A DNA stretch of 64,000 bases, taken from positions 434,001-498,000 of the forward strand of contig JARBJD010000004.1 in assembly GCA_033064195.1 (NCBI GenBank), given 5' to 3'. Position numbers and translations under genes: made by a program. Numbering within the stretch: the first letter of the stretch is position 1; each line of letters starts with the position of its first letter. The notes under the pieces are model-generated. The model was not told the origin of the DNA. It worked only from the letters and a program-made list of their open reading frames with translations, and did not search any database. Below are positions 20,490 to 57,752 of the stretch, one piece after another. This stretch comes from Blattamonas nauphoetae. Lineage: Eukaryota > Preaxostyla > Oxymonadida.

Positions 20490-22648
20490 GCAGAATGAGA
20501 GAGTGAAGGCGTTCACAAAGTTGATTTGAAGGAGACTCATTCAACAATTCTTGAGACTTGATCCATGCAGAAAAGTAATCTTCTCTTCAGTAAAAACGTA
20601 CCTCAATCCGAATATCGTTTTTCTGAGACAACACTACAATTGTTTGAGACTTGAAGAAAAAAAAGCACTCTTGATCTTCAGGAAGTCTCGAGAATGGAGT
20701 CTTCTCACAGGGGATTCCATTGTATCTTTATTTTTGACGAACCTGAAGTAATTCGGAATCAGAATTCCAGCTGGCATGAGAAAAATCGAGTGATTGAATC
20801 ATCACCAACTCTTCCCATTTTTGCCTCGAATGACATCACTAAACCTCCATCATTCCCAACCAGACGAGAAGACTTTGGCCTTGTCGAAGTGTTGCCTGGC
20901 GAAACTTTCTTAAACTACAAACAAAGAGTCATTGACATTCTCAGAACGCAATCTCATTGCCGGCGGATGTGGCGCCATTTCAATGATACACCCATCCCAT
21001 CCGTATTCAAACAGTCTGATTTATTAGGGAATAACACATCAATTGACATACCAGCTTTGTGTCCAACTTCTCAAAGTTCCATTTCCAAGCAGACAACCCC
21101 AGTGAAAACTGACGGAGATAATCTCTCGTCATCGAAAGGTGTGGCTTCGCACATCGATCTTCTCCACGTTCGGGACTATTCTCGAAATTTTCCATTTAAC
21201 CCGCTTCGACTCTTCCATCTTCTCCCAAAACCTGATGAACCACCTCTAAGTGAATTCCGAAATGGACCCATTGTAACCAATCCGCCTCTTCCACTTCAAC
21301 GTGGCTTTGGAGACCCGATGGAACTTTTTTGTCCAACGCACACCCTTAAACTGGATGCACAATCATTTTCAACATTCACGTCTTCCTTCTATCCCCCACT
21401 TCCGTGTCTCCGCAATCCATTCACACCGCTGGAAGGATCTGATTTATATGACACTATCCACCCCAAAGATGGTCTGAAATACGTACAGCCAATCGGCCAT
21501 CCATCTTTTCCGTTTTATTCACCTTTCGCAACACACTCTGCCCTTCCCGTTCCTTACTCCAGCTCACTCACACCTCTCACTAACGATACTCCAGGCAATC
21601 ACTGCCTCGTCACCCATGCACAAGAAACGCTCCCAGAATTCGAAAAGAGAATCATGGGATCGGTCGAATCATGCGACAACCTCTCTCCCAACCATCTATG
21701 CTCGAAACTCCTCAGCCAACACCCAAAGGACAGCTACCCGCTTCTCCTCTTCCTCGTCCCTGCCCAGCTCCACCTCTACCCAGTCCACACCCAAGTCACC
21801 TCCGCCGACGAGATTGTTCTCAACGGAATGGTGCAACAAGACCCGACGTTCTCCCTCCCACGCTCGCAGACTGTTGATGGCGCTGAGCTCTTTAACAGCG
21901 TGGCGGGAGTGCTCACGCAGGGCAGGCGAATTGTGTCGCAGAGTGTGTTCTCCGCGACGGAAGACTGGCACTACGTGCTCGACAAGCTCAACTCGATCAT
22001 CCGCCCCACAATCGAGAAGGTTCAATTGGATTGGGATCGCCCCAATGACCCACACCGACCCATCGTCACGCTGGATCGGATGAACGGGTCAGGCGTCGAT
22101 GTCCGAGCGTTCGTGACAGGACATACTTTCGGTGAGTTAGCCTTGTTGAAACGGAGACCAACCATCGCTGACCTCCTAATTAGGTCATCGTCTCAAATGG
22201 TCAACCATATCAGGATCCATCCGGAAGTGGAGGCTCTGACACTCAACGCAGACATCAGAGGACAGCTCATCCTTCGTCTCCCTCCGCCCAGAGATCAGAA
22301 GCTGAAATACCTCCAACTTCTTCGAATCGCTGCGCATCTCAACCACGTGGCCCCAGAGAGTGAGCAGAAAAACGCTCGTCTCACCGCCGCTTCTCTCCTT
22401 CCGCAATTCTCGTCGCACTTCGACATTCCTCTTCATTCGCAGAACAAACCTCGCTTCGCAGATTTCATCGAACGATTCATCGACTTCATCATCCGCGTCC
22501 TTCTCGTCGAAGTCAAGACATTCGCTGAATTAGCCAACGCGGGCAAAACCAATGAAATCAGCCTCCAACTCTCAAAAGCCTCCCAATCAGTGAACGAGCC
22601 CACACTCCTCACCATCGCCCCCAAAAAGGGTGCCATCACTGATTTTTT

Positions 22649-24035
22649 GGGGTTGACTATAATCAATCCACCAAAGTATCTAAAAACAATCCATTTCGAT
22701 CAATCCCATCAATCCGACATTTTCATCTCTTTTAATGCATCACCCTTCGCCTTTTCATTTTAATACAGATCGAGTTTTCAAACTGAAGAGATGATGATTC
22801 TCATCTATTTAGTTCTCAAAGTTGATCCTAACCGAAAGAAAGTTACGAAATGACAAAATGAACGATCAAGTCACCGAAGTGGAAGACGGAACTAAATCAA
22901 AACAGAGTCACAATTTCCACAAAAACTCCATTTCTTTTGAGATGAAAAGAATCTCAGAAATAGCTCGATCTACTGAATTGCCCGTCAATCACCACAAACA
23001 CGTCCCACCACCGGGTTCCGCTCATTCGATGAGTGAAGTACGTGAATTCTATGTTCATGTCCAGTCTCACTGTGAGGATCGCACTCTAAAATGACCACTT
23101 CCTTCAATTTCGTCATGAACAGTGTCAGATACTCCACCATCCACGTGCGCTTCACCTGACTCACTCATTCAACCACTCTCTCCATCCTTTCTCATCTGAG
23201 CCGAGCGGCACTTGTATCTAATCCTTCCAAGCGACATGAGCGAGAGAGAGCGCAAGGAGAACGGCGGATACGATGTGTGGCAGGATGCCGGCAAGCTGGT
23301 CAATGATTTGCCTTAATTCTCATAAATAGGTTCGTCGTGCTGGCTGCGATGCACGACTCCATGTTGAGCATCAGAGAATCTGTGGGGCGAGGGTGGAAAG
23401 GAGAGAAATTGGAGAGGTGCCTTCCTTGCGGTGTGATTCTCGTAGAACGGTCACTGTGTCTGCTCCGTCTGCCGAAGAGGAAACCCAGCGAACGATGGCG
23501 ACGAAAAGAACAACGACGATGCGTGAGAGAACATAAACTGCTCATTTGACAGTTCGTTCGTTTCCCACCCGAATACACCTCACACGATACTCTGACTCCC
23601 GTCCACTTTTCTTCTTTCTTCTTTGCTTTGTTGATTCTGTCCCTTAACTTGTTGTTGCGTCCTCTGAGAGACACCAGAGTGCTGTTTCGTCATCGAATGA
23701 CATCTCTGATGGAGATCGTGCCGAAGTTGAGGGAGAGTCTTGGAAATGATGACTAGAGATTGATGTTTGATCATTCCACTGAAGATATGTTGAGTTTGGG
23801 AGGAAACTGTTCATGGAATTGCCGATTCCGCTTTTCAAATCACCAATGGGTCGATCAAGACTTGATGGGTTTCAGTCGAGTATTCTTGGGTCATTTCACG
23901 ATGTGGCATTCAAAAAGTTATGAAAGAGAAAGAGTGAAGCGCGAATGGGTTAAACTGATGAAAACATCGAATCGATGGGATTGATCGAAATGGAATGTTT
24001 TTAGATACTTTCGCGGATTGATTATAGTCAACCCC
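22649..24035 (+). mobile_element. Non-autonomous MULE-type transposon, about 1.39 kb
   Basis: Terminal inverted repeats of about 79 bp (22649-22727 and 23957-24035) begin GGGGTTGACTATAATC and match with few differences. They are flanked by a direct repeat GATTTTTT(G) at 22641-22649 and 24036-24044 (8 or 9 bp; the ninth base is ambiguous with the terminal G). Repeat length, terminal Gs and duplication size are Mutator-like, and the GACTATA motif is shared with the larger MULE at 24802-30353. There is no transposase frame inside. Small frames (22858-23094 plus, 23300-23674 minus) have no family I know. The element interrupts the phosphatase gene in frame. Confidence 0.85.
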
Positions 24036-24801
24036 GATTTTTTGAACACAACGGTCGTCACAAAGCCAACGTCTTTGGAAGGGTTGGTACAGTATGTTGA
24101 TCAGGTTCAAGTTCAATCGTCTGCGTGGGAAGGAGATGAGGCTCAAATGGAGGAGTCACCGCTCAGTTCTGTCGTTCTGACTCTTGTCGACCAAGACGCT
24201 GTGTCCAGAAAACAACAACTGGAAAAGGAGGAGGAAGAAATTGAGAAGAAACGAGAAGCAATGAAAGGCCAGATTGTTGAACATGGACCAGAACGCATGG
24301 ATGATGGACCAATAATGGAACCGCCAGCATTCCCGAATCCTTCCCCATCGATGACTGAGACGATGGTGGATCAAGCCCAGTCAAGTCAGCATGACGTCAT
24401 CACTTCGCTGGACTCGGCATCCATCACATCTGCCCTCCAACCTCAGCAAACACCAGCATCCAAGCCAGCCGTACGAAGAAAGAAGAGGCCACCAGTTGTT
24501 CCAACCAGCAAAGAACACTTAGCACAACTTGACAGTGAGTCCGGACTGTTTACAGAACCTTCCGTGCAGAGCGAGGAGAAGGAGAGTGAGGGCGTCCTGC
24601 TCCGACTTCTTCAAAACCCTTCCCTCGACGAGAATGATGAAGCCGTGGAATTGTTAGCTGGAAACATGTATGGAAGCGAACAGACAGATGAAAGTCCATA
24701 CGGCGAAGTGATGGACCAGCAAGACAATACCGATGCCCAACCAACCCGCAGGACGCCTTCAATCTTCCGGACAAACGTGATGTCAAACACAGCCACCAGC
24801 A

Positions 24802-24880
24802 GGGGCCGACTATATCTCATCAAGCATTCCATCTATATCTCATCAAGTTTTGATCAGACCTTAACCCTGTCCCTTAATAG
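24802..24880 (+). repeat. Left TIR of the 5.55-kb MULE
   Basis: 79 bp with an internal tandem motif (TATATCTCATCAAG occurs twice), ending CCCTTAATAG. Inverted copy at 30275-30353. Confidence 0.9.
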
Positions 24881-25050
24881 TCTTTTCTCAAATGCTGAAT
24901 TCAGTCTTTTTCACACTCACCACGTCAATCTTGTTTTCATCTCAGTCAATTTCTCTCTATTTCGGATATTTTTGGTGCAAACAACTCGAATATGTTGGTT
25001 CAAATAGAACACGCTGATCCAGCCCTTAATAGTTTTCTTTAGCCGTTCGG

Positions 25051-26697
25051 ATGACAGAGGGAGAGTTTCTCCCGGACCAGTATCAAGTATGCCGAGGAAC
25101 CACTTTTCAAGAAACAATAAAGAAACTGCGTCTCAAGTGCGTTGCCAATGGTTTTGGGATTTACATTGCTCAAAGTTACAAAACAGAGCACAGCCAAGTG
25201 TACATCCTTAGATGTGAATGTGCTGGACAATGGAAATCAAAACGGGACCAAACCAAGAAACAACGAAAGGAAAAATCATCAAAAAAATCAAATTGTTTAT
25301 TCAAGATCAAGCTCGAAGGATCGGACGCGAACCATTCAATCAAAATCCAAAATGAAACGCACAATCATAATCTCTCCTTCATGGAGAATGCATGGAACTC
25401 GAGTCGCAAGATAACAGAAGAGAAAAAGGAAATCCTGCGACCATTTGTAGAGACGTTCACAAAACCCATGAAAGTACAGCAGATCCTTGAAAATCGAGAA
25501 GAGCCCGTCAGAATACGTGCAAGGGACTACACAAATTTTGCTCAGAAACAGCGGAAAATCGAAAGATCTCAGAAAACCGAGCTGGAAATCATACGCAATT
25601 TGGCAAGCTGTAAAGGATGGGTTTGTTCCGAAAATACGGTTGGTTCGGTTCTCAGTGCTTTGTTTCTCGTACCACCGGAAGCAAAACCATATTTTCAATC
25701 CAACGCCCAGTTTCTAGCCATGGATACAACGTACAGGACAAATGCGAATGACTACCATTTACTACAAGTCGTTGGAGTTTCATCAACACTCCAATCGCTT
25801 CCGCTTGCATTTTGCTTCCTATCAGCGGAAACAGCCAGCCAATATAGATTCGCTCTTTCGGAATTGAAGAAAGTTGTTTTAACAGACCCTGCTGTCGTTA
25901 TTACGGACAAGGATGCCAGTATCCGATCGGCAATCCAATCAGTTTTTCCCTCAACTCAACGACTCCTCTGCTCTTGGCATGCGGCTGAGAGTATCTTCAC
26001 AAAGGCGCGATCCTACTATCCGCTGGAGCAGTCCACTCACGTTCAAAATCTGATGCGAACTGTTTTAAGATCACCAACAGAAACCGAAGCTATCTCAGCA
26101 TATTCGTCGCTCATTGAGGAGGTAGGAGTTGACAGTGAGATGGCGGAGTATCTGGACTCGAATTGGTGGTCTATTCGGGAATCGGTTTGCGAATTCTCGA
26201 CGAAACGCTTCCTTCGCTTCCGTTTCACGACGACAGGTCTCTGTGAGGGAGCTCACTCCACTCTCAAAACGTTCCTTGGAACATCCCGCTTCAGACTCGA
26301 CTCAACTTTTCAATTGCTGTCACAGCATACAACACTGAGGTGCAGACGAGTCCGAGACCAAGAAACACAAAATGCAGTGAGTCGACCATCATTTACTCGT
26401 TCGACTGACTTCTTTTCTCCAATCGTCGGAAAAGTCAGTACTGCTGCGTTGGAGTTGATTTTTGTTGAAATGCATCAAGAACAGACAAATCCTCCGCTAA
26501 CCTTTGAATGTACCCACGAGATTCGCTCGTCCCACGGTTTGCCCTGTCATTGTGAGCTTCAACATCTCACAACAGGAAAGCGCCAGTTGACTCTGGATTT
26601 ACTGAATCCTTGTTGGAGGCTCCCAGCGAAAATTACAGAAAAGTCGTACATCCACCGAGGCATGAACAAACCTCACAAAGAATCGAAGCTACTCTAG
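25051..26697 (+). CDS. MULE transposase (FAR1/FHY3-like)
   Basis: 548 residues. The N-terminal FAR1-like zinc-binding region has a C-x-C pattern (LRCECAG), HNHN-type histidines (ETHNHNLSF) and basic blocks. The MULE catalytic core follows, with AMDTTYRTN (first Asp), VITDKDASI (second Asp) and the CSWHAAESIF segment characteristic of the superfamily, then a late glutamate-containing helix. The C-terminus has a SWIM-like zinc finger, SSHGLPCHCELQH. This layout (FAR1, DDE, SWIM) is standard for Mutator-like transposases. The frame is intact from ATG 25051 to TAG 26697, so the element may be, or recently was, active. The C-terminal continuation seems to lie in another frame (26700-27185). Confidence 0.9.
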   Translation: MTEGEFLPDQYQVCRGTTFQETIKKLRLKCVANGFGIYIAQSYKTEHSQVYILRCECAGQWKSKRDQTKKQRKEKSSKKSNCLFKIKLEGSDANHSIKIQNETHNHNLSFMENAWNSSRKITEEKKEILRPFVETFTKPMKVQQILENREEPVRIRARDYTNFAQKQRKIERSQKTELEIIRNLASCKGWVCSENTVGSVLSALFLVPPEAKPYFQSNAQFLAMDTTYRTNANDYHLLQVVGVSSTLQSLPLAFCFLSAETASQYRFALSELKKVVLTDPAVVITDKDASIRSAIQSVFPSTQRLLCSWHAAESIFTKARSYYPLEQSTHVQNLMRTVLRSPTETEAISAYSSLIEEVGVDSEMAEYLDSNWWSIRESVCEFSTKRFLRFRFTTTGLCEGAHSTLKTFLGTSRFRLDSTFQLLSQHTTLRCRRVRDQETQNAVSRPSFTRSTDFFSPIVGKVSTAALELIFVEMHQEQTNPPLTFECTHEIRSSHGLPCHCELQHLTTGKRQLTLDLLNPCWRLPAKITEKSYIHRGMNKPHKESKLL

Positions 26698-26699
26698 AC

Positions 26700-27185
26700 A
26701 AAATAAGACATACAATTATGTCTCGACCTCAACGTGAACTGGATGATATGACTCATGCATTGGAGCAGTTTGCACAAAACCTTCCCCAAGCGGTGTCATT
26801 GAAGGCAGTTCAAAAGAGAAAAGACTCAGAAAACCACGAGATTCAAAACTACGGCCGAAAGAATGAGGTCGGTTCGTTTGCAGTCGAAACCAACACTTGC
26901 CAAGAACAATCTTCTTCTTCTGAATCCTACGAGAGCGAGAGGACACCAGATTCCGAAAAACAGAAATCGGGAGACGTAAAGTGGCAGCTTCTGCCAGGAA
27001 ACCATCAGTTCGTTCACAGTCATGAAGACAGAAAAGACATTTTATTTCTCCATTCGATTCCATCGTTTCCCACTTCACTAACACAGATGGTCATTTTGAT
27101 TGTCATCAGAGGTGTTTTTTACAATAACAATCGTTTCGGTAAAATTTTTGGTGTGTGTGAGAAGTTGTCGAAGCCACTTCAGTAA
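26700..27185 (+). CDS. Possible C-terminal part of the MULE transposase, or second MULE protein
   Basis: An open frame (start 26610, unique part from about 26700) reads KIRHTIMSRPQRELDDM and then a polar K/E/S-rich tail. It lies two bases out of phase with the transposase and overlaps its last 90 bases. Such a helical-then-polar tail is usual after the SWIM finger, so a short unseen intron or a frameshift may separate one protein into two. I recognise no independent domain. Confidence 0.45.
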   Translation, partial: KIRHTIMSRPQRELDDMTHALEQFAQNLPQAVSLKAVQKRKDSENHEIQNYGRKNEVGSFAVETNTCQEQSSSSESYESERTPDSEKQKSGDVKWQLLPGNHQFVHSHEDRKDILFLHSIPSFPTSLTQMVILIVIRGVFYNNNRFGKIFGVCEKLSKPLQ

Positions 27186-27286
27186 ACGACACGTCCCTTT
27201 GAAATGGATACATAAAGACTCTGGCTTATCCTGGAAATACTGAAGAAAGACGAAGGAGAGGTCAACACGAGAACAGCGTTCTCAGA

Positions 27287-30159
27287 ATGCGAGTGATCGT
27301 CGTCGAAGTACTCGTTTCGGGCTCAGCACAGCATGTCGTTCATGTTGCGTGTCTGTTCGGCGTCAGTTCCGCTGCTGGCAGAGTGATCAGCTGTTCTGTG
27401 TTCGACACCAGCCACGCCAGCACGTTGTCCAGCCCCACAAATGTACCCATCCATCCTGGAATCCGATCTGGCTCGCTCACCTCGTTTCGCAGGAAGCAGT
27501 CGCGTGTTGCTGTGCTGAACTCGTCGGCTGCTGGGAACATCCCGCGTGTGCGAGGAATCTTCAACTTCGACAGAACTGTGTCGGACACTCCAGCTGTCAA
27601 AGTCGCGTCCAGCGCTTCATTCCCAAACACTGCGATCTGGTTCAGCATCTCCAAATACTTCACTGCTTGCTTGATCGTCTCTCACAGCGCGTCGGTGTCT
27701 GTCGTCAGGTGTGACGTGTCCTTCCGAATGGGATTCGAGTAATGTGCGAAGGTTGGGTTGTTCTCATGTGTGAACGAGTTGTTGTCCACCAGCTGCTGCG
27801 TCAGGAACACAACCTGCAGAGCCACTGTATTTCGCACCACAACCGAGAAAGGATGACACGCTGTGTCCAGATACTCCGACTTGCCTGTCAGCATCGGAAC
27901 AAACGTCAGCGTCAGTGCTCCCAACACAAACACGGGCCCCACTCCCAGACACAGCATCGTCGGGCGGGAGAAGATCGAGTGGATGCTGTGTGCGTCGTTC
28001 GCCATGGTCAGGGTAAGCTCGTGCGACATCTCCACATCCTAAATCGACTCCTCCACTCGCTCTTCCACCAGCTCCAGCACCATCCTTCGTGGCTTTGTCT
28101 CCGATGGCGTGTCGCTCACCTTGATCAGCGGCTCCGAGTTCGTCTGTGTGACCATGTCTGGTGATTCCGAGTCGTTCGGCGGGCTCGTCTGGAACAGCGA
28201 CGTTGTCTGCTTCCCCGCTGCCTATCCGAGGAGGGGCGTGTATGGCTGCGGCGGAGGCATGCTTTTAGGGATCGACATTTGGTGTCTCGTCCAGCGAGTG
28301 TGGGGCTGACTCAACAACGTTAGTCGGGTTATTCTGCCCTGTGGGTGCTTTCAGAGGAGACATGGCGAGAGATTTGTGAGGAGTAAGAGTGGGTTCGTTG
28401 AGAGACGATGATGTCAGTGATTTTCGAGGATGAAGGGTGGGGTCCGGCGATAGGTGTCATTGTCAACGATTTGCGAGGAGTCATCGAATGCGGAATTTGA
28501 GGGTTCATGAAGCGAACGGCGAGGTTGTCGTTCATGTCCAGCTCGTTCGATTGAGCGTTCGTTATTCCCTCTTCCTCATCTTCGTCCATCTTCCCCTTCC
28601 GTCTCATTCTCTATCAGGATCAGGCCGAGAATGAGCATCGCCCCTTCTTCATTCGAGACAGCTTCTTCCAAATGAACCCGTACACAACCACAACCAACAC
28701 CTCCAACACAACCAGCACCACAATCATCGTCAGAAACGTCACTTCCACATTCCTCTCGTGCCCCGACGTAATCAGAAGTACAATCTCCCACAACAGCGAA
28801 TCGTGTTCGTCGGCGTCGTTGAAGACAGTCGGGTTCGCCAGCAGCGACGACGATGCGGGGATTGCGAATGTTAATTCTCCGATTGTGTCCAGCAGCCCGT
28901 GGAACTCGGTGACCACAGACTGAGCGGGTCCAGACTGCGAAACAGAGCTGTCTTCGTGTTCTACAGGATCGCATCCAAGTCTTAAATGTATTCCCACCCT
29001 CCCACCATCGTCGGGGCTGCCAGATGCTCAAACAAGTCGTGTGTAAGCACCAGTGCCGACATCTGTGACGTATGCTTCAATATTTGAAATTGTTTTGTCG
29101 TTGAGTGAACTGTCTTCGCCGACACTTCGAACTGAAACAGTCTTTCGTTCTCTTCTCCAACGAAAAGTGATTGATGTTCGTGTGCTTTCTTTGCTGTCGC
29201 TTTCTTTTCCAGGATCGTGATTATCGAGTCCAGTCCGTCTTTAGCCGTGTCATCATTGAGAAGATCAACAACCACTGTTCACATCATCTTCCAAAGCGCC
29301 ACTGAGTTTGGTGAAATCAGAAGCTGTTTTTTGATGTATTCGAACGTTTCCTTCGCTTTTCGAGCTGCCAACAGCGCAAGACGGTGCAGTTGGTCAACAG
29401 AATACGATGGTTGGTCCAACAAGTTCGGAACTGTAAGTAAAATCATCTTCGACGTCTCCAACTTCGCTTGCGCACCAGCTGTTCCTCCTCCTTTGTCACC
29501 ATCGTTCATCCCAAGTCCTTGCATGGGATCATCATTCATTTTCATCCGTTCTGCCTCAACCATGTCATCCAGCTCCTTTTCAATCGAAAAGATCGTCCAT
29601 TGATTGAAAAAAGTGCGGATATCCGATTGTTGCTTGTTGAATCACTTTTTGGGCATTTAGATAGTTTTTCTTGAAGGATGCTTCAAAAAGAGCGGATATC
29701 AGGATGAGTGAGGTGGACGATGGGAACTGTGCCGAACACACTGGTCAATGATAAAACGAAGCCGAACTTCCAAAAAATCATGACATCACAAACACGCAGG
29801 TGCGGGAGAGCTTGTCTTTCACTGACTACGAGCAGCCGATTGATTTGTGAGAAAAATTCAAAAAACGACGTGCGAGAAGAAAGACAGCACACACGTGGAT
29901 TGAATCCCATTCGAAATCGAAACAGAGTGTCCAGATGAAAAGTTTGAAGATTCTGGAGATTATGAAGGAGATGGAGAGGAAGAGATACATGAAGAGAAGG
30001 CTGAAGAGTGTTGATATCGATTTCACCAATGGTACTCAACTTTTTCTCGACAACGGTTCCAACAACACAGATATCACTTCGATGAGTCCAGCTGTTACCT
30101 GATCTTGATGAAGGAACGAAACAATCAATGGCTCGATCAACGTAGTTTGTTTGAAACAA
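27287..30159 (-). pseudogene. TmcB-like multi-TM gene fragment captured inside the MULE
   Basis: Minus-strand frames, in order from 30159 to 27287, give hydrophobic helices (WKFGFVLSLTSVFGTV), then a TPR-like block (LALLAARKAKETFEYIKKQL, then a piece resuming VVDLLNDD after one in-frame TGA near 29280). Next come a TM helix (MIVVLVVLEVLVVVV, about 28690), a polar linker (28329-28607), another TM helix (27900-27960, LGVGPVFVLGALTL) and an extracellular-like tail (27340-27663). The order and the TPR block match the gene at 8752-15126: compare LLVLVANHSAAAKKQFNALL there. It covers roughly the distal half to two thirds of such a gene and has several interruptions, so it is not expressible as a whole. 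It lies wholly between the MULE repeats. Confidence 0.7.
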
Positions 30160-30274
30160 CAGAAGGTTGTTTATTTCAACGAAATTGCTGAAAATAGCGA
30201 GAAGTACAGTGAGATGAAGATAAGAATGATGTGTTGGAGAAGGAAAATCATTTCTTCCTCACCTGAGAACAATA

Positions 30275-30353
30275 CTATTAAGGGACATGGTAAAGGTCTG
30301 ATCAAAACTTGATGAGATATAGACGGAATGCTTGATGAGATATAGTCGTTCCC
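30275..30353 (-). repeat. Right TIR of the 5.55-kb MULE
   Basis: Inverted copy of 24802-24880 with only a few substitutions. It contains an ATG (30335) in frame with the downstream host exon, so the downstream gene piece could in principle be translated from the repeat. Confidence 0.9.
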
Positions 30354-30913
30354 CCACCAGCATCCCGCCAGACTGGCTGACATCTCAAAGCCAACGCGGT
30401 GAGCAGACTCTACATCTCCCAAAAGTGTCGTATCTTCAACTCATCCAGCCTGTTCTGATGGACCTCATCAACAATCTGGAAGAAAAAGGCGCTACTCACT
30501 CCAACAAGAATCACTTGTTTCCAGTTTCACAAATCGACAAGGAGACACTCTCTCTCCTCGAAAGCCACAAGATTGTTGGTGGTTTTGTGTTTGATGAGCT
30601 GAAGCCGAGGAGCCGATTGTTCGCACCAGACATAACCGAAACACACTTCCACTCGCTCGACAGAATCATCAAGAAACTGATCAACACCTTTCCAGTTCTG
30701 AACGTCCTCACGCTGCACGAGCTTTATGTCCTCTGGCTCAGACACAACGACGAGATATCATCTCACACGAACAGTCAGGTGTGGGAGGAGAATCGGGAAC
30801 GAATCACCCAAAGTCTGCACACCTGGATTCGGCATTGTCTATTCAAGCTGGACAACGAGAACAAAGACAAGTACGACGTGTCCATCTCCCCCACTCTCCA
30901 ATCCAGCAGCGTA

Positions 30914-31135
30914 CAGCTCGACTAGTTCTGAATTGCATTGTAATTTTTCAGAAATATACTTTAATTATTCAGAAATGAACATAATTTTTCAGAAATGTAC
31001 TTTAATTTTTCAGAAATGAACATAATTGTTCAGAAATGAACAGAGATTGTTCAGAAATGAACAATGATTCTTCACAAATGAACAGTGATTTTTCTGAAAT
31101 GAACACTAATTTTTCAGAAATGAATGATCAAAATG
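30914..31135 (+). repeat. Left TIR and subterminal repeat array of the mariner element
   Basis: After the 28-bp terminal repeat come about nine imperfect copies of TTCAGAAATGAACA spaced 18 to 24 bp apart. The mirror array lies at about 32915-33081. Such arrays are expected to be transposase-binding sites. Confidence 0.85.
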
Positions 31136-31299
31136 AGTTGTCCAAATGCAATTTCGTAACCATATTCAGTCTTCTGAACAATGAAAAAAAGGTTGATCGG
31201 ACCCTTAAATTGTCTCAAAAAATTACGCGTAACCATTTTCGAATGTGACATCAGATGATAAACGGAGAAGATTTTTCTGGAAAACCATCGTGAAATTTC

Positions 31300-32815
31300 A
31301 TGGAACGCTCCTTTTCTCTCATCGATGATGAATCTGAGACTGACGAGTCTCAAAACTCACCGATCACCGAAAGACAAATACAATACCAATCTCTCAACGA
31401 ATCGGATGGATGGTTCTTTGGTGATGAAGTTGTTGATTGTGAATCTGGGATGGAAAGTCAGCAGGATGGGCTTCTCACAGGCGGATTCAGTCAGGATTTT
31501 ATTCGAACAAGTCTCAAACGATCGAAAGATGAACTTCGAAGACTCTTGCCAGAAAGAATTGAAGCAGTTGATAGTGCAAGCCCACCTGAACCTCTTATTC
31601 CACAAGATCCTCATGAGTTTGTTGAACTACCAGCTCCTCAGAAGATGAAACGTGGTCGTCCAACTTCTCGTCCTGCCCCAAAGCCCCGACGATCTTACAC
31701 CATTCTCACGCCTCGTGAACGCGACTTGGTCCTCGATGAAGTGAAGGAAGGGAAGAAGTACGATTTGATTGTCGAAAAGTGGAACATCTCGAAAGGAACA
31801 ATCAACAACATCGCATCTGGAAAACCTGCTCCCAAACCTCGTGGGGGAGCAGTCTATCGAAAAAATCACTCCAGAAATTTCACGATCAATGAATGATGCA
31901 ATTCTTCAAAACCCACTCTTGAAGGGAGAAGAACTCAAAACTCTCGTCGAGGATAATCATGGAACATCCGTTGCAGTGTCGACAATCAATGCTCACCTAA
32001 CTTCACCAAAAATGGTGGAACACGGGTGTACAAAGTTCACTGTGAAGAAAGTCGAGCTGCTCCAACACGAACGCAATTCGGAGGAAACAAAGGACGCGAG
32101 ACTCGACTATCTTCAGCGATACGCAACAACATTCTCTCAAGGTGGATTTGCTGTCTACATCGACGAAACTTCCTTCAACAAGACCTGCTTCCAAAATCAA
32201 GGTCGTGCTCCAATCGGTCAGCGTTGCCTTCAACGAGTTCGTCGATTGCAAACTGAAAATCTCACTGCAATCACAGCGATCTCTGAAGCGTGGGGTGTTG
32301 TTCATGTGACGTGGGTTCAAGGAACTGTGTCTGCCCTTGAATTCCAACATTTCCTCCTCTCACTTTTTGAGTCCCTTCAAAGAAGAACGAATGAAAGCTG
32401 CACACTGATTCTGGACACTGTTGGCTTGCATAAGACGGATGAGGTGAAAGAGCTCATCAGATCGAAAAATTACACAACTCTGTTCACTCCACCAAATTCC
32501 TGTGAGCTGAATCCGATCGAGTACGTCTTTGGCATGTGGAAAGGTGGGAGTTCGATTCCTTCTCATGTCAGAACAGAGGATCAACTGCGGATTCATCTTT
32601 CGGAATCTCTCAGTGCAATTCCTCATCGTAAGATATCCGCGGCCATCAGATTTGTGTCTCTCAGACTTCATCCAATTGTCGCTCGCCGAGGTGATTTGGC
32701 TCTCAATCCAACACAAGAACAGTTCAACCGCGATTCGAACGGCCCACAAGCTCCAAGTCCGCAAGCAATCATGCCACCAGACCAAGGACCACGAGTGGAA
32801 GAACCTGAAGAATAA
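31300..32815 (+). CDS. Tc1/mariner DD34E transposase with one frame break
   Basis: The N-terminal frame (31300-31896) holds a helix-turn-helix region with LTPRERDLVLDEVKEGK and WNISKGTINNIASG, and a basic GRPTSRPAPKPRR motif like an AT-hook. The catalytic domain lies in a second frame (about 31845-32815): VYIDETSFN (first Asp), LILDTVGLHK (second Asp) and NPIEYVFGMW (Glu). There are exactly 34 residues between the second Asp and the Glu, the classic DD34E spacing. The two frames meet at a run of five Gs (31843-31847), so a one-base slip in that homopolymer, real or a sequencing artefact, explains the break. The acidic C-terminal tail ends EEPEE. Confidence 0.88.
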
Positions 32816-32914
32816 ACTGCTTCATCAATAATTCACCACACAAGAGTGTTTCCCTTCGTTCTGTCAGTCTTTTCTAAAACGAGTGGTCTAAAATAAAGCC
32901 GAAAAAGAGCCGTT

Positions 32915-33081
32915 CATTTCTGAACAATCACTGTTCATTTCCGAATAATCATTGTTCATTTCAGAAAAATTAAAATTCATTTCTGAACAATCATGTTCAT
33001 TTCTGAACAATCAAAATACATTTCTGAACAATTATGTTCATTTCTGAATAATTAAAATGCAATTCAGAACTAGTCGAGCTG
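32915..33081 (-). repeat. Right TIR and subterminal repeat array of the mariner element
   Basis: Inverted counterpart of 30914-31135, with about seven copies of TGTTCATTTCTGAA. An ATG at 33057 is in frame with the host phosphatase sequence that follows. Confidence 0.85.
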
Positions 33082-35042
33082 TAGAAGTGGAGTTCATGGG
33101 GAACGAGGAGGTGTGGTCGGGCATCAGTGAACAGACTCTACGCGACTATTTTGTTGTTGACGTGGCTGCTCATCTGTACACCCTCCTTCCCTTCGACATC
33201 ACTCCAGAAGACATCGATGGCTTCGTCGAGGAAGAAGAGGAGCGAGCACTTGCCGAACCAGGATCGATCCTGCAGTTCAAAGAGAAGGGAGATAATTTCC
33301 GAATGAAGCTGGTGATATTGCAGATGCTCGCCGAATACGAAACTCGTCTTCCACTATTTGGCATGCACCTTCCGACCAAATTCCAAACAGAACACTATCC
33401 CGCCCAGAATCCTCCCGCTCTCTCTCCCATCACTGCCAACCACAATCCGTGCCTGCTTTGGGATCTCGGGAACGTCATGGCCTCAATGCGGAATCAGGAG
33501 GAAGTCCACGCTGCTCGCGAACAGCTGATCCGTCGCCTCAAGCGAACGATGAATGCCCTCCAGCTCTCCGACTTCCGACCCATCATCTCATCGTCAGACA
33601 ACCGCCCGGTCAAGCTGCCATCGTCTTCTGCGGTGACTACATCGACAGAGGATCGTTCTCCTTCGAAGTGCTGACTTTGCTGCTGCTTTATCGAATGCGT
33701 TTCCCACAACACATCTTCCTCATTCACGGCAACCACGAGTCGAGTTGTCTCGTTGGTGAGGTAGAAGTAGTGAGAGACAGCGAAGGCCACTACGTCAAAC
33801 GATACAAACTACCGAATTGGAATGACTTCTTCTTCCGCAAGTTTCCCCAACCAGCTGATGTGAAGCATCCTTTCACAAAGATCCTCTGCGACTTGTTCAA
33901 AGCGATGCCGTCAGCAGTTCTCTGCACACTCAAACACACAACACTTCAGAACGAGCATCAGGTCGTCGAGGAGCGGCGAGTGCTGTGTGTGCACGGCGGT
34001 CTCAGCAGCATATTCCCCACCCCCAACCTCCAACAGATAATTGATCATTATTTACCCATCATGGATGACTTTTACACTCCGTCAGGCTTCACCACACAAC
34101 AGCACGAACAGTGGTCGAGGCGCACCCAGCACTACTCCTTCAACTACGCAGCAAGTATGGGCGATCCGAGCGGGGCTGACGAGCCGTGGGAAGGCAGAAA
34201 CAGATTCTCGCCCATCACCACGCGTGCTTTCATGGCAGCGAATCGGATCGATCTGATCATGCGTGGACACGAGTATCCGATGAACTCGGAGGGAACGACG
34301 GAGTCACATGACGGTGCGATCGTCACAAGCTTCGGCGCGTTTGATTACTACCTCACGAAGGATCCGCCGATCAGCGGAGCGATTCCCGACGAACTCGGGC
34401 AGCGCCTCGACCATCAATCGTTCCTCCTCGACAACGAGGCCAGGTTTGAGAGCAGAAACGGAGCGATGCAGTGGCTGTGTCTTCAGTCGGTCACTTCGAA
34501 CACCGTCGATCCTGTCGTTTTGGTGAAGAACGCACGAAGACTGGCTCCTTCGCTTGTTCATTCGTTGAAGAATGAACAGAATGACACAAACACTTTGAAG
34601 AAACGAGCTCTGATTGAACATATCAACACTCCAACCGCAGGCTTCACAATCACTGCTGATCAGTCACTTGCTCGTGCTGCCACTCTCCCAATGGTCGTCG
34701 AGACATCAGACGAGATGCAGATCGAAACAGAAGCTACTCCCACGTCAGCTATTCTCTTCACGATGAAGACCATCCATCTGAACTCACTCGCTAAGATTCT
34801 TGATTCTGCTCCCAACTCGGCCTCCACTTCGTTTTGAAATGTAATTCTGTTCATGCTACGTTTTCCGAGTGTTTTGTTGAAGATGATGTGGCGAATTCGC
34901 GTGATCTGCTCTGTTGTACCGAATCACAGTGAATGACTCGCATTCACTGGGCAAACTGATTGACAAACCATGCTGAAGAAGAGAAGAATGTGAAGTGGGA
35001 CACTCTATCAACACAGTTTCAGTTAACTATTCGTCTCATTGG

Positions 35043-50153: not shown

Positions 50154-50634
50154 GGCAAGGGTAGACTTTCTGGGCCAAAAAACTCTAAGTAGTGGCAAAA
50201 AAGTTGTGCTCGGCGGGAGTCGAACCCCAAGCACAACAGTCGACAGAGTGGTTGACCTCCGCTAGGCCAAACGCGCCGCACGTTCACTTCCAAAAAATCG
50301 GTGTCTTGAAGGGAGAACTGTCATAGATTGTCACTTCACGATACATCATGATCAATCGGAATGTTTTGAAAAAATTCTTAAAATACCAGTCATAATGTTG
50401 AAATGATTCAAGAAAGCGTAAAGATGAAGTGATATAGTTCGCCGATCGACCTCATCAATCATGATCGAATGATCGTGACATTCTCTGAGACGATCTCGAC
50501 ACTATGCACACTATTTCAAAACGAATACGGATTTTCAACTTTATGTGCCACATTATTACGAGAGAATAGCCGAGTTGAACAACAAAGTCACAACACACCT
50601 CGATCACCTTTGGCCCAGAAAGTCCACTCGTGCC
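50154..50634 (-). mobile_element. hAT-type non-autonomous element, 481 bp
   Basis: Terminal inverted repeats of 24 bp contain GACTTTCTGGGCCA at both ends. The 8-bp flanks are GATGTTTC (50146-50153) and GATGTATC (50635-50642), one mismatch apart; 8 bp is the hAT size. The left 200 bp are nearly identical, in inverted orientation, to 56935-57132. It contains a tRNA-like stretch. Confidence 0.75.
50204..50281 (-). other. tRNA-like sequence with Pol III A and B boxes, copy 1
   Basis: On the minus strand it has an A-box-like TGGCCTAGCGG and a B-box GGTTCGACTCC, correctly ordered and spaced about 33 bp apart, followed by a run of Ts. The acceptor and anticodon stems do not pair fully, so it is a degenerate tRNA relic rather than a working tRNA. 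Confidence 0.5.
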
Positions 50635-51479
50635 GATGTATCTTCTGTTGTTTCACCTTCTTCCTACCAAATTTTAGCTCTCATCCTTCCAGACACCACT
50701 CTCATTCACAATGGGTAATCTACCAGAAGAATGATGAAAATGAATATGTAATCGTGTTATAGAATCTCGAAGCTTTCCTGATCACCATCTTCATTCTGAA
50801 TGACGATCTTCTCACAATGTTGTCTTCACACATCACATTAAAGTCGGTATGAGATTCATTCAATCACAATATTCCAGGCTGAAAATGATTTTAGCTTCGG
50901 AAAGGAAGATCGCTTCGAATGAATCTGAATGTAGGATTGAAAAAGCTTTCTTTCAGACGTTGGAATATTTGAAGATTCAAGTGCATGTGGTTAAAATGAA
51001 ACGAACGCAATCAGGACCTCCCTCACCGTTGACAGCTATCCTTGAGCTTGAACAGTTCGTCTACCACCGAAAGAAACGACCCGTCACATTCTTCTGACAT
51101 TTCTAACAACGAAATGAAATTGAATTGCGTCTGAATGAGTGTCGAAAGAGAAGAAGCAAAACGAACACGAATGAAAAGTCGAAACATGCACCATCGGGTT
51201 AATTTCGATCCGCGGGTAAATTTTGAACTTTAGAAGGATGCCTCAATGTCGACTGTCTTTCTCCGAAGAGAATCCGACTTGATTCCGATTGATTCATCCA
51301 TCCGCAGAAATCATTGACAATCGTTAAGATTTTGGGAGGAGATGTGTCAGCATTGGAGAGTTTGGAGGAGATTGAGGTGAGGCATCTTTTCCATCGCGAT
51401 CGAACTGATGGCCCGCACCCTTTTTCAAATTTTTGAAGATTTCTGATTCGAGCCTCAAGTGAAAGTGGTTAAATACCAG

Positions 51480-52140
51480 TGACTGAGAATGATGCACGGA
51501 TAATATCAGGTGTCGTAGCTTTCACAAACGCACCTGGAAATGAAGCGACCAAGGATGCTGTAGTGTTCAAATTGCCTGTTCGGATGTGTGTGACGAACAG
51601 CCATCCAGTTCCTTACAGAATGACTTTAAATCCAAGTATATCCAGATCAGTGAATTCATGTCTTGGAAGTGAAGGAGATAGTAACACAGGATTGTCAGTC
51701 GCGGTTACCATGTGTGTTTTTGAAACTTGACGAGCAATCACCGATGTTTCGTCACAATTCAGGATCAAGTCAGGATCGATGTTTAAGTCTGCTATTGTTT
51801 CTCCAAGCATTGAAATCCAAAATTTCATCGTTTGTTCGGTTGATGCTCCAATCCTTGCATTTTCGGAGAACTTTTGTTTTTTTGTACGGGGTTCTGGGTG
51901 TCATCCCATAAACCCGTTGTTCAACCAGTTCACAGGATTATAATTCTCCTGGACCATTCGAATTACGATGTTCTTCAATACTACCTCCCTGTCCACATTA
52001 AGCTTCTTATTTCTGACCAAGGCTGGATGAACAGAGATATTTTTGTCAGATCTTTTCATTAACCTCAAGCTACTAAGGTCTGGACATAGCACTGACAAGG
52101 TGGTTTCATCTCGTTTTCGGATTCGGATTCTCAATCTTAT
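51480..52140 (-). mobile_element. Relic of a DDE_1 (pogo/Tigger-like) transposase
   Basis: On the minus strand, a frame at 51613-51828 reads DLNIDPDLILNCDETSV, the hallmark second strand of DDE_1 transposases where the Asp of CDET is catalytic. It is preceded by WISMLGETI and followed by a threonine/valine-rich stretch. Frame 51901-52134 upstream may be more of the same protein. Only part of the catalytic domain is visible, no terminal repeats were found and the frame is broken. It is a DNA-transposon fossil with low functional potential. Confidence 0.6.
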
Positions 52141-52676
52141 TTATGAATTCAAAAATTCTCCCGCATCTATCATTCAACGACACTCAAAAACGAAAAAACT
52201 TTCCCAATCTTTTCTTGTCAAGGCGAAAAAGGAGGTTTTTTCACGTCTTCCCAGATTCCCACATTTTTTTGTTGAAGTTTTTGGCTAAATCTTCATTTCA
52301 TCAAAAAAACATTTCTACAAAAACATGTCTCAAAATTGGTCCACAGGTTGTGAAGATTTTACAAGAACACAAAAAAAACCAAAAGGATGAATTTAAAGGA
52401 TTTCTCGAAATCACGTCGATATAGTCATTAAAAAAAGTGTTTCTTCTTAGTTGGTCCATCTTTGTCCCACACCGAAAAGAGAGTGGATGATTGATTTTTG
52501 TGGACTATTGACACCACTATGAGACATGGTTGATTTTTTCTTTTTTTCTGCTTTTGATCTCAACTGTTGTCACATGGACAGACCTTTGATACATGAGATC
52601 AATCAAGCAGAAACTGAGATCGATCGATCTCAGCTCCAGTTTTTGGGACTGAGATCAATGACTTAATTAAGCGTAT

Positions 52677-54863
52677 CTATATTTTCCTCAATTTTCCTGT
52701 TTTCAATCGAAATGTGAATGTCTGAAAGATGAGTATGGATATCAATGGAAGAAACAGAATAAGAAACTCCACGAAGAGATAAGTGTGAAGAGGTAGATCA
52801 GTTTGGAGGTCGAACAATCCAGAATGACATTCCTCTCCTCTTCCTGACGTCACTGTGTTGATTGACACATAAATGCTCATTGGTGTGGAGTTGCTTTGTT
52901 CATCAAATGTTAGTGTGTGTGCGCCTGTCATCATTCGACTCCCTGACAACGTCAACAACACATTGTTCTTGTTCTAGGAGTTCAGAGCAGTATCCACTTT
53001 CTCCAAAATCGCTCCAAGTGGCGTCTTCAGGCTCGTCTGGTTCAACAGCACGTATTCTCCTCCTTTTGTCACACTCACAATCGAATATGTCGTGTTGAAC
53101 TAGATTTCGGAAAGGAGACAAGCTTTCACTGTTCCTGTTCCTGATGTTCCTGTGCTGAATGTGATCTCGAATGATCGAGACGACGAGAGACTCACCGTGT
53201 ACTTACCACCTGATGGAAAGTTCGATCCAACAACTGAAACCGAAAACGAATCTGATTCCAGAGTCAATCACAATCGGAACTGACTTGCACGACGCTGATT
53301 GCACAGAGTATGTCGTCCCAAACAACAGATGAGTCGTATTCTCTTCCCATCCAACTGGGAACACAATCGAACAAGTTGTCGAATCAGTGATCGAGAGGTC
53401 ACATTCCAACTCAGCGGCACTGTCCAAAGACTTGAAGTGAACTGTTCCTGTTCCAGTGGGGAGTAAGAATCCACCAAAGACGACAGACATCACTTCTTTC
53501 GGTCCATTCAGTGAGCGAGAGACGACAGACGCGATTCAAACTTGTTCAGAAGGAGTGGAGAAGGTGAGAATGTTAATTCGTCGAATGTCATTCTCGTTCC
53601 ATCCTTCTTGTGTTCAATTCGAATGATTTTTGATTCTGCCGACAAGTTCAGTCTACCTTCGGCATCAGATGGATAAAGAGGCGCATCTCCAACCAAAGTC
53701 TGAACGAGCATCGAATAGCTTCCTTCCAGAAGTGTCACTCCCTTCACTGTGATTGTTGTCGTGTTCGCATCTTTTCGAATCGCCGACGTAGAGAAGAGCT
53801 GAGACCCAACATCCCCAGGAAGGATGAAGGAGCGGAGAGTGTATTCGGCTGATGGAAGAACCCCATCTGCTCCCGACGACACGGTCGCTGTCCCAATCGA
53901 CGAGTTCTGTCCACTTGCGTCGAACACCACGAACACCAAACGAGGTACAAGGCAGCCTTCCAACAGAACACCCATCGCTCCTCCAATCACTTCCTTCGTC
54001 CTCACTTCCACTGATGCTACATTTCCATTGATCGTGACTGTACATGCTTCGACAGTCGGAGTGGATGTGATTTGTGGGATGAGTGTGCTATTCGCTGTCG
54101 TCGTCGGTTGACAATATACATTCGGAGCACCCGACGTCGAAGCTTCAACATTTTCAGCCGAACAGCCTCGAAAGAGAAGAGATGTCAGAAAATTGAAGGA
54201 TGCGATCATGGAAAGGCCGAGTTTTGCGCTCTCGATCACCTTGCAGTCGACAAACGAGCAATTAGTGACAGTTGCGGCGGAAATGTTGTAAATCGCGACA
54301 GAAGAGGCATATTGTGCCTCATTTTTCTCAAAAAAAGAGTCGCTGATCGACGCCAACGTACACTTTCCGTTGAACACACATCCGCCATTGTTCGTTCGTA
54401 GTTCCGTTGATATGCATTCTGTGAACGTCAACTGATCAATTTCGAGCTTATTTTGCGTATTTTCTGGGCAGATGATGTTTATCGCGCTTCTATTATCGTT
54501 CTCGGTGGTGACATGGCAGACGTGGAAGGAATACTGTCGGACGGTGAGGGAGGCCCCAGAAGACATAAATATCGCGCCTCCGCCATTGAATGAGCCGACT
54601 GCGGTGATCATCTCTCGGAGGGTACAGAGAGTGAAGGTTGCGGAAGTGATCGGAGATGAGGCGTCGAAAGTGAAGCGCTGGGATGATGTTGTGTAGTTCT
54701 TGTTGGGATATGAAGCTGGTGTATTCGATTCGCGGATGCAGGAAGTGAAGGTGTTGGTCAGGCAGGCCAGATTTCCTCCAAGATTCGCATCCAACATAGT
54801 CGTCCCACTGTCATGATTCGAGCTTCGTGACACGCAACACCCAATTATGTTTTGCTGTTGCAA
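52677..54863 (-). pseudogene. Pectin-lyase / Ig-like surface protein gene, decayed
   Basis: From 54863 downward, a 451-residue frame has beta-helix style strands (GGGAIFMSSGASLTV, NNGGCVFNGKC, SVAIYNISAATVTNCSF). The next piece (53203-53493) is an Ig-like repeat of the type in the 1774-5922 protein (VVFGGFLLPTGTGTVHF). Further repeat pieces follow (NTTYSIVSVTKGGEYVLL near 53070, then LTLSGSRMMTGAHTLTF near 52930) and a hydrophobic helix near 52745-52800. Stops and frame changes separate the pieces, and no signal peptide precedes them. The domain order matches the intact relative at 1774, so this is a broken paralogue. Confidence 0.7.
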
Positions 54864-55795
54864 ACTCCCAAACCTGTTCTGGTTTCCCCAAATTGGAGTT
54901 CGGTTGCTGGAAGTGGGCTCAGAAGTTGAGCAAGTTGGCTGGAGACACGGGCTGTGGTGAAGTTCGGAGTGGTTTCCAACAAGGGAAATTGCTGTAGAGA
55001 TCAGTGGGTGATTCCTTGTGTGCTATTGCTCATGATCGGCATGGATGGACCAGGAGAGAATCATGACACAAATTTTGTGAGTTTCCGGCAATTCATCACT
55101 TGTGGGCAGGGAGACTCTCCAAGCCTGCAACACATTTCTGAGGTGTGAGTTGAAATATCGTGATTAAATTGCATCATGAATTCGGTAGATCATGACTCTT
55201 CGCAATCTGGAGAGATGGAGCAATATATCCGAATTGTGGAGGAGAGATGGCACGAGATTCGGAAGGTGGATTAGAAAAGTGAGCAGTGGCATGAAAGAAT
55301 CAGAGAGTAACATCGAGGGAGGCCAGAGATCGAGTGTCGAGGATCTATCTGAAGGATGAATAGAAGAGAAGGCTATGATGAGAAGAATTATAAAAGGGAC
55401 AGATTAACCATGCCAAAATAGGACTGAAGAGTGTGATCAAGGGAAGAAATCTCGAAGATAAACAAAGAATTGAACAACGAATGGAAACCTGTAGAATCTA
55501 TCACTCAAACAGTTCAAATTTCGTCAAGAACAGGCCAATGAGATCCTTAGTGACAAAATTGATATAATTGGAGACAATTAAGCGTGATTTGACCTGATCT
55601 TCACGAGGATCTGAATGAAGATTTATTGTGGGATGACAGAACACAATGTAAGTATGAAACTGACTGAAAACTAAAATTTACACGGATATTTGGTCTTTCA
55701 CTTCGGAATTCTGAATTATATCCAAATTTGAACAGTAGAAATTTTCTGAGATCAAAAAAGCTGAGATCGATGAGATCAGTCTCAAAGGTCTGCAC
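54864..55795. other. Intergenic, nothing recognised
   Basis: About 930 bp of AT-rich DNA upstream of the decayed surface-protein gene. Only short unrelated frames. A small imperfect palindrome (CTGAGATCGATGAGATCAG, near 55763) resembles one near 52610, but no element can be delimited. Confidence 0.4.
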
Positions 55796-55799
55796 ATGG

Positions 55800-57132
55800 A
55801 TGATTCATTTCAGATAGCCCAAAAGAACGCTTTGAGTGTTTAATTGCCTCCACAGAATCAGCAATTGCCGTGGTACATGGGATGTTGATCGACACGAAGA
55901 ACCAGACACAACGCCACGACCTCACTTTGGCAGGGTTCGTTGAATCTCCAGCCTCAACCATCACCTCACTCAAATCAATGGTTCAAAAAAAGGACCAAGT
56001 ACATCGATACAGTCTTGAAGAACGTTGACACTCGCTTCCCATCCTTTCCCGTTCTTCTCTGCTTTTCGATTTTCAATCCAATCGAAATTGGACAACATGC
56101 ACGAGTTCAAAAATGGGGATTGGCCGACAATGAAACATTGTTCAAGAAATTCTCTTCCAGCCTGCCAAATCCAACTCTCGACTATTTTGAAAGTGATTGC
56201 TCTCTCATGAAACGCGAATTGAGCTATTCATTCAATTCCACCAATTCTGAGAACAGTCTCAATCTTTTTGAAACCCCAAAAAACACTATAGTTGGTTTCA
56301 TTTTTATCAAAGTCTTCCAATGAATGTTCAAATTTTAAGTTATGTCGAGAGTTCGAGTCGAATGATGAGGAGGTGTCTTCTGAGACAGTTTCTGTGAAGC
56401 GGTATTCAAGTTTCAAGCCTTGGAGCGAACCAATTGAGGACGGACGTGAAATATTGGGGATGATTTCAAATTTTGGAAATACCAACTATGACTGAGCAGC
56501 TTTGTGACATTGGGAAAGTCAGAAGAAGTCGTTTGACAAAACGCGCATTCGAAGCCATTATGAAAATCTGGGAGACTGATCCGTGCGACTGAAGCTTTCA
56601 CCTCATCACAAAGTCGTGCTGGTGTCCAGACGTTCTGAAAAGGATCAAGGAGGTCCAGAATGGTTTGCACCGATTGGTGAAATCACTGAAAAATCCTACA
56701 ACAATTTTGAGAAAGAGACAAAATGTGCAGAAGGATGTTCTGGACATCTGTAAAAAGCCGGAAATCCAAGCTATTGATGTCGAATGAGTTCGAGTTGTTC
56801 AATGAAGCCAAAAGACACCTTCAAAATCCGAGTTGTCGCCGAGTGAGTTCGAGTTGTTCATGTATTTCATCGTGGACAACTCCACGAAGAGCTGCACCTG
56901 TCAAACACAATCGATCTCTTCGGCGGATTCTTGATCATGATGTATCGTGAAGTGACAATCTATGACAGTTCTCCCTTCAAGACACCGATTTTTTGGAAGT
57001 GAACGTGCGGCGCGTTTGGCCTAGCGGAGGTCAACCACTCTGTCGACTGTTGTGCTTGGGGTTCGACTCCCGCCGAGCACAACTTTTTTGCCACTACTTA
57101 GAGTTTTTTGGCCCAGAAAGTCCACCCTTACC
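55800..57132 (+). mobile_element. hAT element remnant with transposase fragment
   Basis: Frame 55940-56323 reads KYIDTVLKNVDTRFPSFPVL and then FSIFNP, the segment typical of hAT transposases just before the C-terminal dimerisation region. Upstream, 55812-55985 in another frame (LIASTESAIAVVHGML) fits the same protein, so the gene is frameshifted. The right end (to 57132, GGCCCAGAAAGTCCACCCTT) matches the terminal repeat of the 481-bp element at 50154, inverted. The left terminal repeat was not found, so the 5' boundary is uncertain and the element is probably truncated. Confidence 0.6.
57005..57082 (+). other. tRNA-like sequence with Pol III A and B boxes, copy 2
   Basis: Near-identical to 50204-50281 in opposite orientation, with the same A and B boxes and a T run at 57084-57088 that could stop Pol III. 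Secondary structure is degenerate: only four acceptor pairs in a row, GTGC/GCAC. Confidence 0.5.
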
Positions 57133-57219
57133 AGCGGAAACATGAATAATGTGTATTAGCGATCCCGAAAGTGAGATCAAAGAAAGAAGTGCTGATCAGG
57201 CCCAAATACAGTCGAATTA

Positions 57220-57574
57220 CAGGGTGATTCAGAAGTAATGGTCTTTCATGGGGCCGATCACCTTCGGACGAAAATCCATATGAAGCACCAAGAATCTTTC
57301 TCATCTTCGTACGGCTTAGGCTTTTTGTTTTTAATCATTTCATGTCTACCAGGTTGATAATTATGTTCAGCTGACAGAGAAAAGGAGGTGGACCGAAAAG
57401 ATTTTTCTCTGTTTTACTGCTTCCACGGACTGATAATCAACCTGGTAGACATGAAATGATTAAAAACAAAAAGCCTAAGCCGTACGAAGATGCGAATGAT
57501 TATTGATGCTTCATATGGATTTTCGTCCGTAGTTGATCCGCCCCATGAAAGACCATTACTTCTGAATCACCCTG
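57220..57574. mobile_element. TA-flanked hairpin MITE, 355 bp
   Basis: Two arms of about 145 bp start CAGGGTGATTCAGAAGTAAT and are nearly perfect inverted repeats around a short loop (about 57375-57430). TA lies on both sides (57218-57219 and 57575-57576). This is the typical form of a Tc1/mariner-mobilised MITE. No frame inside. Confidence 0.88.
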
Positions 57575-57752
57575 TACACCGACCAAAAGCAGACACGCCA
57601 ATTTGCCAGGTCATTCATGGATAACCAATAATTCTTCTTCATCTCCAACGGCTCGTTTCCTCCCGGATCTGATCTTGTCGCTGGTCTTCTGGTGAGAGAC
57701 ATTCTCAAGTACGGGTAGGATCAACTTCTCTTCTCTCTCCCTTTTTCTGTTT

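Follow-up and report, generated by a model that had tools for sequence, protein, structure and literature searches.

Does a gene that is interrupted by three transposons, each of which could be taken out with exact restoration of the reading frame, remain in use, or is it a dead gene that merely looks repairable? The question is raised by a locus in the oxymonad Blattamonas nauphoetae, found in the window analyzed here, a stretch of 64,000 nucleotides (C334:434001-498000; positions given below without a contig are those within the window). The genome that we searched comprises 88.3 Mb in 837 contigs, and the published assembly is described as having 88.5 Mb in 879 contigs (PMC10703272). In the window, three DNA transposons of different families and with clear ends interrupt one gene of a PPP-type phosphatase. 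We consider it very probable that this paralogue, one of several copies of a PPP-type (PP5-like) phosphatase gene, was inactivated recently and is an ordinary young pseudogene.

Anatomy of the interrupted gene

All pieces of the host gene lie on the forward strand. Piece 1 (20694..22648) corresponds to the 5' part of the phosphatase paralogue, forms an open frame with 83% DNA identity to the copy on contig C73, and ends in the target duplication GATTTTTT. It is followed by element e1 (22649..24035; 1,387 bp) and by piece 2 (24036..24801; 766 bp, open, 77% identity to C73), which opens with the second GATTTTTT and closes with the first CCACCAGCA. Element e2 (24802..30353, forward strand; 5,552 bp) separates it from piece 3 (30354..30913; 560 bp, open, 83% identity), which is bounded by the second CCACCAGCA and the first TA, both included. 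Element e3 (30914..33081, forward strand; 2,168 bp) comes next, and then piece 4 (33082..33594; 92% identity to C73), which reaches approximately to the junction of a deletion (33589..33599). Piece 5 (33595..34837), in a frame different from that of piece 4, contains the remaining phosphatase domain, which matches positions 35-188 only of the PF00149 profile. Given the high identity of piece 4, we considered a gene-conversion tract with e3 and the deletion as its two limits, yet the sliding identity to C73 exhibits no edge at e3, and this candidate was dropped.

The duplications flanking e1 (8 bp), e2 (9 bp) and e3 (TA) are present in one copy on each side, and removal of each element with one duplicate generates the joins TDFL/NTTV, NTATS/IPPDW and QSSSV/EVEF. 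The original prediction, that elements of 1.39, 5.55 and 2.17 kb cut the gene and that the frame is exact at each of the three joins, was thus reproduced; its stop-free host pieces of 757 and 551 bp are the pieces 2 and 3 described above minus one 9-bp duplicate, and both are open in the expected frame. Its claim that a gene spanning 20694-34837 can be restored holds for the three joins, but not for the gene as a whole, as the rejoined frame stops at 33674. Moreover, the rejoining of frames is uninformative with respect to removal, because any insertion with an unmutated target duplication rejoins in the same way; we therefore rejected frame restoration as evidence of removal, as the duplication alone yields it and it does not exceed chance.

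Comparison with the paralogues and a deletion of 979 bp

A genome search with a probe of 741 bp taken from piece 1 retrieved, besides the window copy, three paralogues that have diverged (85, 80 and 72% identity), so that four copies of the phosphatase gene were found in B. nauphoetae (window, C73, C49 and C556). The C73 copy is a single frame of 2,023 codons and is free of elements at all three sites; its protein product matches PPP-type phosphatases in the PDB, with PP5 as the best match, and covers positions 5-188 of PF00149. The C49 copy, a single frame of 1,565 codons with a large in-frame loss of its own, is continuous across the first two insertion sites, while the third site is deleted. 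The C556 copy comprises two frames (932 and 1,094 codons) and is continuous at the first site at the protein level and at the third site at the DNA level. Near the site of e2, its two frames are separated by an unrelated stretch of 439 bp, in which the longest inverted repeat measures 17 nt. As judged by eye and by a hand-checked phase, this stretch fits a GT-AG intron; the deposited annotation counts against an intron there, since it lists two separate proteins (865 aa and 1,122 aa), and the C556 gene may be split in two.

Comparison with C73 reveals a lesion of the window copy that is separate from the transposons. A segment of 979 bp is missing at approximately 33594, between what in C73 are two copies of the 9-bp microhomology TCGTCAGAC. 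In C73 the missing segment encodes, among much else, the sequence GDIHGN, whose GDIHG stretch is a motif that binds metal in the PPP family. As 979 mod 3 equals 1, the frame is shifted: with all elements removed it still ends at 33674, and the phosphatase part (ORF 33449-34837) lies in a different frame from the rejoined 5' part. Because of the frame shift and the loss of GDIHG, removal of all three elements would therefore still yield no phosphatase; short of an assembly error at the deletion, the gene is thus dead whether or not the transposons are present.

Identity and age of the elements

Among the three elements, e2 is the most readily classified: its transposase ORF (25051-26697) contains the MULE domain (PF10551, E=1.6e-21 in a profile search), its terminal inverted repeats (TIRs) of 83 nt are 93% identical, and its 9-bp duplication lies within the MULE norm of 8-11 bp. 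A block within it (approximately 27346-29730) has a relative on C557, a frame of gene length. In the stretches compared, the sister copies are nearly identical to it: 5 mismatches and 5 gaps in 2,903 columns at one place on C823 (L043); 6 mismatches and 11 gaps in 2,368 columns at a second place on C823 (L044), with an extra piece of 142 columns at 94%; 5 mismatches in 1,190 columns on C358; 4 in 456 on C606; and 24 mismatches and 6 gaps in 3,923 columns on C58.

Element e1 has TIRs of 117 nt (80% identity), an 8-bp duplication and a longest internal ORF of 124 codons. Duplications of the e1 type are mostly 8-9 bp long and its ends (GGGG-NN-GACTATA) resemble those of e2; blastn detected no significant match between e1 and e2. 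On the basis of these ends and duplications e1 may be termed MULE-like, a label that does not demonstrate homology to MULEs. Full-length copies of e1 were identified on C268 and C34, among the matches scored. The three copies vary at 10 positions in 1,387 bp; at 3 of these the change is private to the window copy, which differs from its two sisters at 6 and 7 positions.

The transposase of e3 is encoded in two overlapping frames (31300-31896 and 31769-32815) and contains the DDE_3 domain (PF13358, E=4.6e-20), with a spacing of 83 between the two aspartates and of 34 between the second aspartate and the glutamate (DD34E). Its TIRs extend up to 169 nt and are composed of subrepeats of approximately 21 bp. 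The genome contains at least 39 other matches to e3 of at least 1,900 bp. The copy on C214 aligns with it over 1,401 columns that contain 3 mismatches and 1 gap, so that the 98% given by the genome search would mostly reflect a difference in length. In these searches we scored 40 of the 107, 179 and 134 candidate copies, and copy numbers are lower bounds. Altogether, the elements differ by approximately 0.2-0.8% from their sister copies over the stretches compared.

Absence of stops and traces of selection

Upstream of the deletion, the host gene has accumulated neither stops nor frameshifts in 1,257 codons. With such young elements, stop-free flanks are expected: neutral change of 0.2-0.5% predicts 0.27-0.67 nonsense mutations in 1,257 codons, and the probability of finding none is 0.77-0.51. 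Thus, we rejected the absence of stops as a sign of function. The corresponding probability falls to 0.26 at 1% change and to 0.07 at 2%; a change in the host above approximately 2% would make the absence of stops surprising and would count against recent death.

The dN/dS ratio between the window copy and C73 is 0.31 (1,257 codons), so the gene appears to have been constrained through most of its history, a short neutral period not being visible in such a value. With C49 as the outgroup, nonsynonymous and synonymous changes number 70:67 on the window branch and 47.5:62.5 on the C73 branch (Fisher P = 0.20, with rounded counts), i.e. relaxation on the window branch is not significant, which is a further point against recent death. 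With both C49 and C556 as outgroups, the counts are 16.5:23.5 and 8:21, respectively.

A dN/dS well below 1 could also mean that a useful shortened protein is still made despite the insertions, either from the interrupted 5' frame or from the C-terminal ORF (33449-34837), and C49 reveals that a large in-frame loss is tolerated in this family. We regard a shortened product in use as very unlikely, since the 5' frame terminates within e1 after 689 codons, the phosphatase part lacks GDIHG, and selection before death accounts for the low dN/dS.

Could the elements be removed from RNA or DNA?

If transcripts were cleared of the elements, the gene could be interrupted and still expressed. In animals, SOS splicing allows transposons to fold out through their inverted repeats. 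It acts on transposons in mRNA and involves ligation by RTCB, according to a review (PMC13247085). Applied to the window, such a process would fold out the elements and rejoin the mRNA by an RtcB-type ligase. Long inverted repeats are indeed present in all three elements (117, 83 and up to 169 nt), precise joins would preserve the frame, an RtcB gene was found in the genome, and one other MULE-like insertion, at C40:50068-51712, lies inside a 996-codon frame that is open on both sides. RtcB would be expected regardless, for tRNA ligation, and a search for CAAP1 found no match in any of the control genomes and is hence uninformative. We judge removal at the RNA level to be highly improbable here, as the frameshifting deletion of 979 bp would persist after perfect removal. 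The deposited gene model BLNAU_1051 (849 aa) likewise gives no hint of joining: it starts in an ORF farther upstream, continues across piece 1 and enters e1, and piece 2 is absent from it. RNA-seq intron hints were fed into the gene models of the published assembly (PMC10703272).

If elements were commonly removed, other insertions might be found in open frames, and no excess of this kind was observed among other MULE-type insertions, which also speaks against RNA-level removal. From 47 merged stretches with relatives of e1 or e2 we retained 21 insertions with both ends and a duplication (11 e1-like and 10 e2-like), and dropped the rest, which lacked paired ends flanked by a duplication; the survey took in MULE-type insertions only. 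Nine of the 21 could be joined with at least 1 kb of flank on both sides, and 1/9 lay in a frame of 300 codons or more and 3/9 in one of 200 or more, vs 63.5% and 69% of 1,500 positions chosen at random (binomial P 0.002 and 0.03), a control drawn from gene-rich stretches (the window and the three paralogue regions) that overstates the deficit. With the insertions' own flanks as the control (14 of the 21, with 500 bp), 200 codons were reached in 4/14 vs 45%, a difference that is not significant (binomial P 0.16), and 1/14 insertions vs 12% of the control were fully open across 333 codons. MULE-type insertions are thus not overrepresented in open frames and may even be underrepresented there. 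The broader proposition that B. nauphoetae strips inverted-repeat DNA transposons from its transcripts with RtcB-type ligation, and thereby keeps interrupted genes expressed (the window gene before its deletion, the frame on C40), strikes us as just as improbable as removal in the window itself.

Ordinary splicing through GT..AG pairs near the ends of the elements, as expected of an introner-like element, was tentatively set aside. In-frame, stop-free pairs no farther than 40 nt from the ends number 4, 5 and 7 for the three elements, and in-frame pairs occur equally commonly in shuffled sequences (279, 287 and 291 of 300), a weak comparison in that no stop filter was applied to the shuffles.

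Removal at the DNA level, either by programmed elimination as in ciliate IESs or by precise somatic excision that leaves a mixture of full and empty alleles, would agree with the unmutated target duplications and the flanks in frame. Against this, Blattamonas nauphoetae probably possesses one kind of nucleus. The piece-1 probe detected no near-identical second allele lacking the elements, only the paralogues listed above; the same gene holds a deletion that no excision can repair; and the differing superfamilies and duplications (8-9 bp vs TA) would require at least two excision systems. We consider DNA elimination scarcely credible: the excision-allele and IES-like readings of the original prediction found no positive evidence, with the rejoined frame ending prematurely and the catalytic motif missing. 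An insertion hotspot, also named there, is a candidate in favor of which nothing observed here speaks.

A probable recently dead paralogue

The conservative reading in the original prediction, a recently dead gene collecting insertions, is the one that the comparison bears out, with three empty sites in C73 and the additional frameshifting deletion. It had been anticipated that empty sites in related strains, together with other disabling mutations and with no reads joining the flanks, would mark plain fixed insertions in a pseudogene; what we found comes close to this, with paralogues standing in for strains. We propose that the copy would have been under purifying selection until recently, that its function would then have been lost via the deletion or the first insertion, and that later insertions would no longer have been selected against. 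The flanks would still read in frame because too little time has passed since death for stops, or for mutations in the duplications, to arise.

In favor of recent death we count the C73 frame without elements, the 979-bp gap, the truncated PF00149 match, the young elements and the dN/dS of 0.31. Besides the points against it named above, the coding pieces show no decay other than four large lesions, a shortened protein could in principle be made from sequence still in use, and an assembly error at the deletion is possible. The locus is a clean case of a young pseudogene that appears repairable, in which a separate lesion becomes visible only by comparison with a paralogue, and it shows that DNA transposons belonging to two or three families have been active recently in an oxymonad. 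Our literature search found no paper on transposable elements in Blattamonas nauphoetae. Removal at the RNA or DNA level would, if true, be striking for oxymonads; nothing here points to it.

Comparison with known systems

The elements resemble known groups, each with its own peculiarities. MULEs include the gene-capturing Pack-MULEs, and e2 shares with them the transposase domain, the long TIRs, the 9-bp duplication and a block related to a cellular frame; unlike Pack-MULEs, e2 retains a transposase ORF, and e1 has only a short terminal motif in common with it. DD34E is the signature of Tc1-type elements, while mariner elements have DD34D. The label "mariner" originally given to e3 fits at the level of the Tc1/mariner superfamily (TA duplication, DDE_3 transposase), but the D-34-E spacing is Tc1-like, and the TIR subrepeats and the transposase split over two frames also set e3 apart. 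SOS splicing resembles the process imagined above in that both would act on transposons in mRNA with ligation by RTCB, whereas the window gene would stay broken after removal. The closest parallel is an unprocessed duplicated pseudogene with insertions, with which the window gene shares an intact paralogue with empty sites, an extra frameshifting deletion and young elements; it differs in combining three insertions with the absence of any nonsense mutation, and hence it looks repairable.

Paralogues of the phosphatase gene

Comparison of the phosphatase gene at window 20694-34837 with its paralogue on contig C73 revealed that identity is mosaic along the gene: the first 300 bp match at 85-100% per 60 bp and the segment at ~33300-33540 at 97-100%, while for the rest identity is mostly 60-93%. 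This pattern in the aligned sequences suggests gene conversion between the paralogues. In the paralogue on contig C556 (locus L007), two frames are separated by 439 bp (L007:3281-3719) that fit a phase-1 GT-AG intron. This candidate intron has no counterpart in the C73 copy and, contrary to the intron fit, the deposited annotation of the region keeps two proteins.

Mobile elements

A second clean in-gene case is the MULE-like insertion of 1,645 bp at C40:50068-51712 (loci L026 and L036), with the duplication TTTCGAAGG; the frame that holds it has 996 codons and is open as far as either end of the stretch.

The transposase of the mariner e3 (window 31300-32815) is split between two overlapping frames, and in the copy of e3 on contig C214 it is divided over two frames in just the same way. 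A family-wide frameshift, an intron and programmed frameshifting are all possible. On another contig, at C15:17359-26899, two long copies of the mariner are clustered with numerous matches to its subrepeat TIRs; the arrangement resembles a satellite that grows from the TIR.

Window 50154-57132, which is probably another large mobile element, carries inverted repeats of 202 nt each (99% complementary, 6.6 kb between them), adjoined by a hairpin (93%) at 57211-57583. The nearby ORFs, 53511-54863 (-) and 58167-59519 (+), gave no Pfam match.

Within the MULE e2, ~2.4 kb (window 27346-29730) are related to a 1,569-codon frame on contig C557. The longest blocks are ~900 bp at 95% and ~690 bp at 92% identity, accompanied by one block of 216 bp (89%) and two more that are gapped (76-79%). 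Judged by these alignments, this part of e2 looks like a gene fragment captured by the MULE, in the manner of Pack-MULEs.
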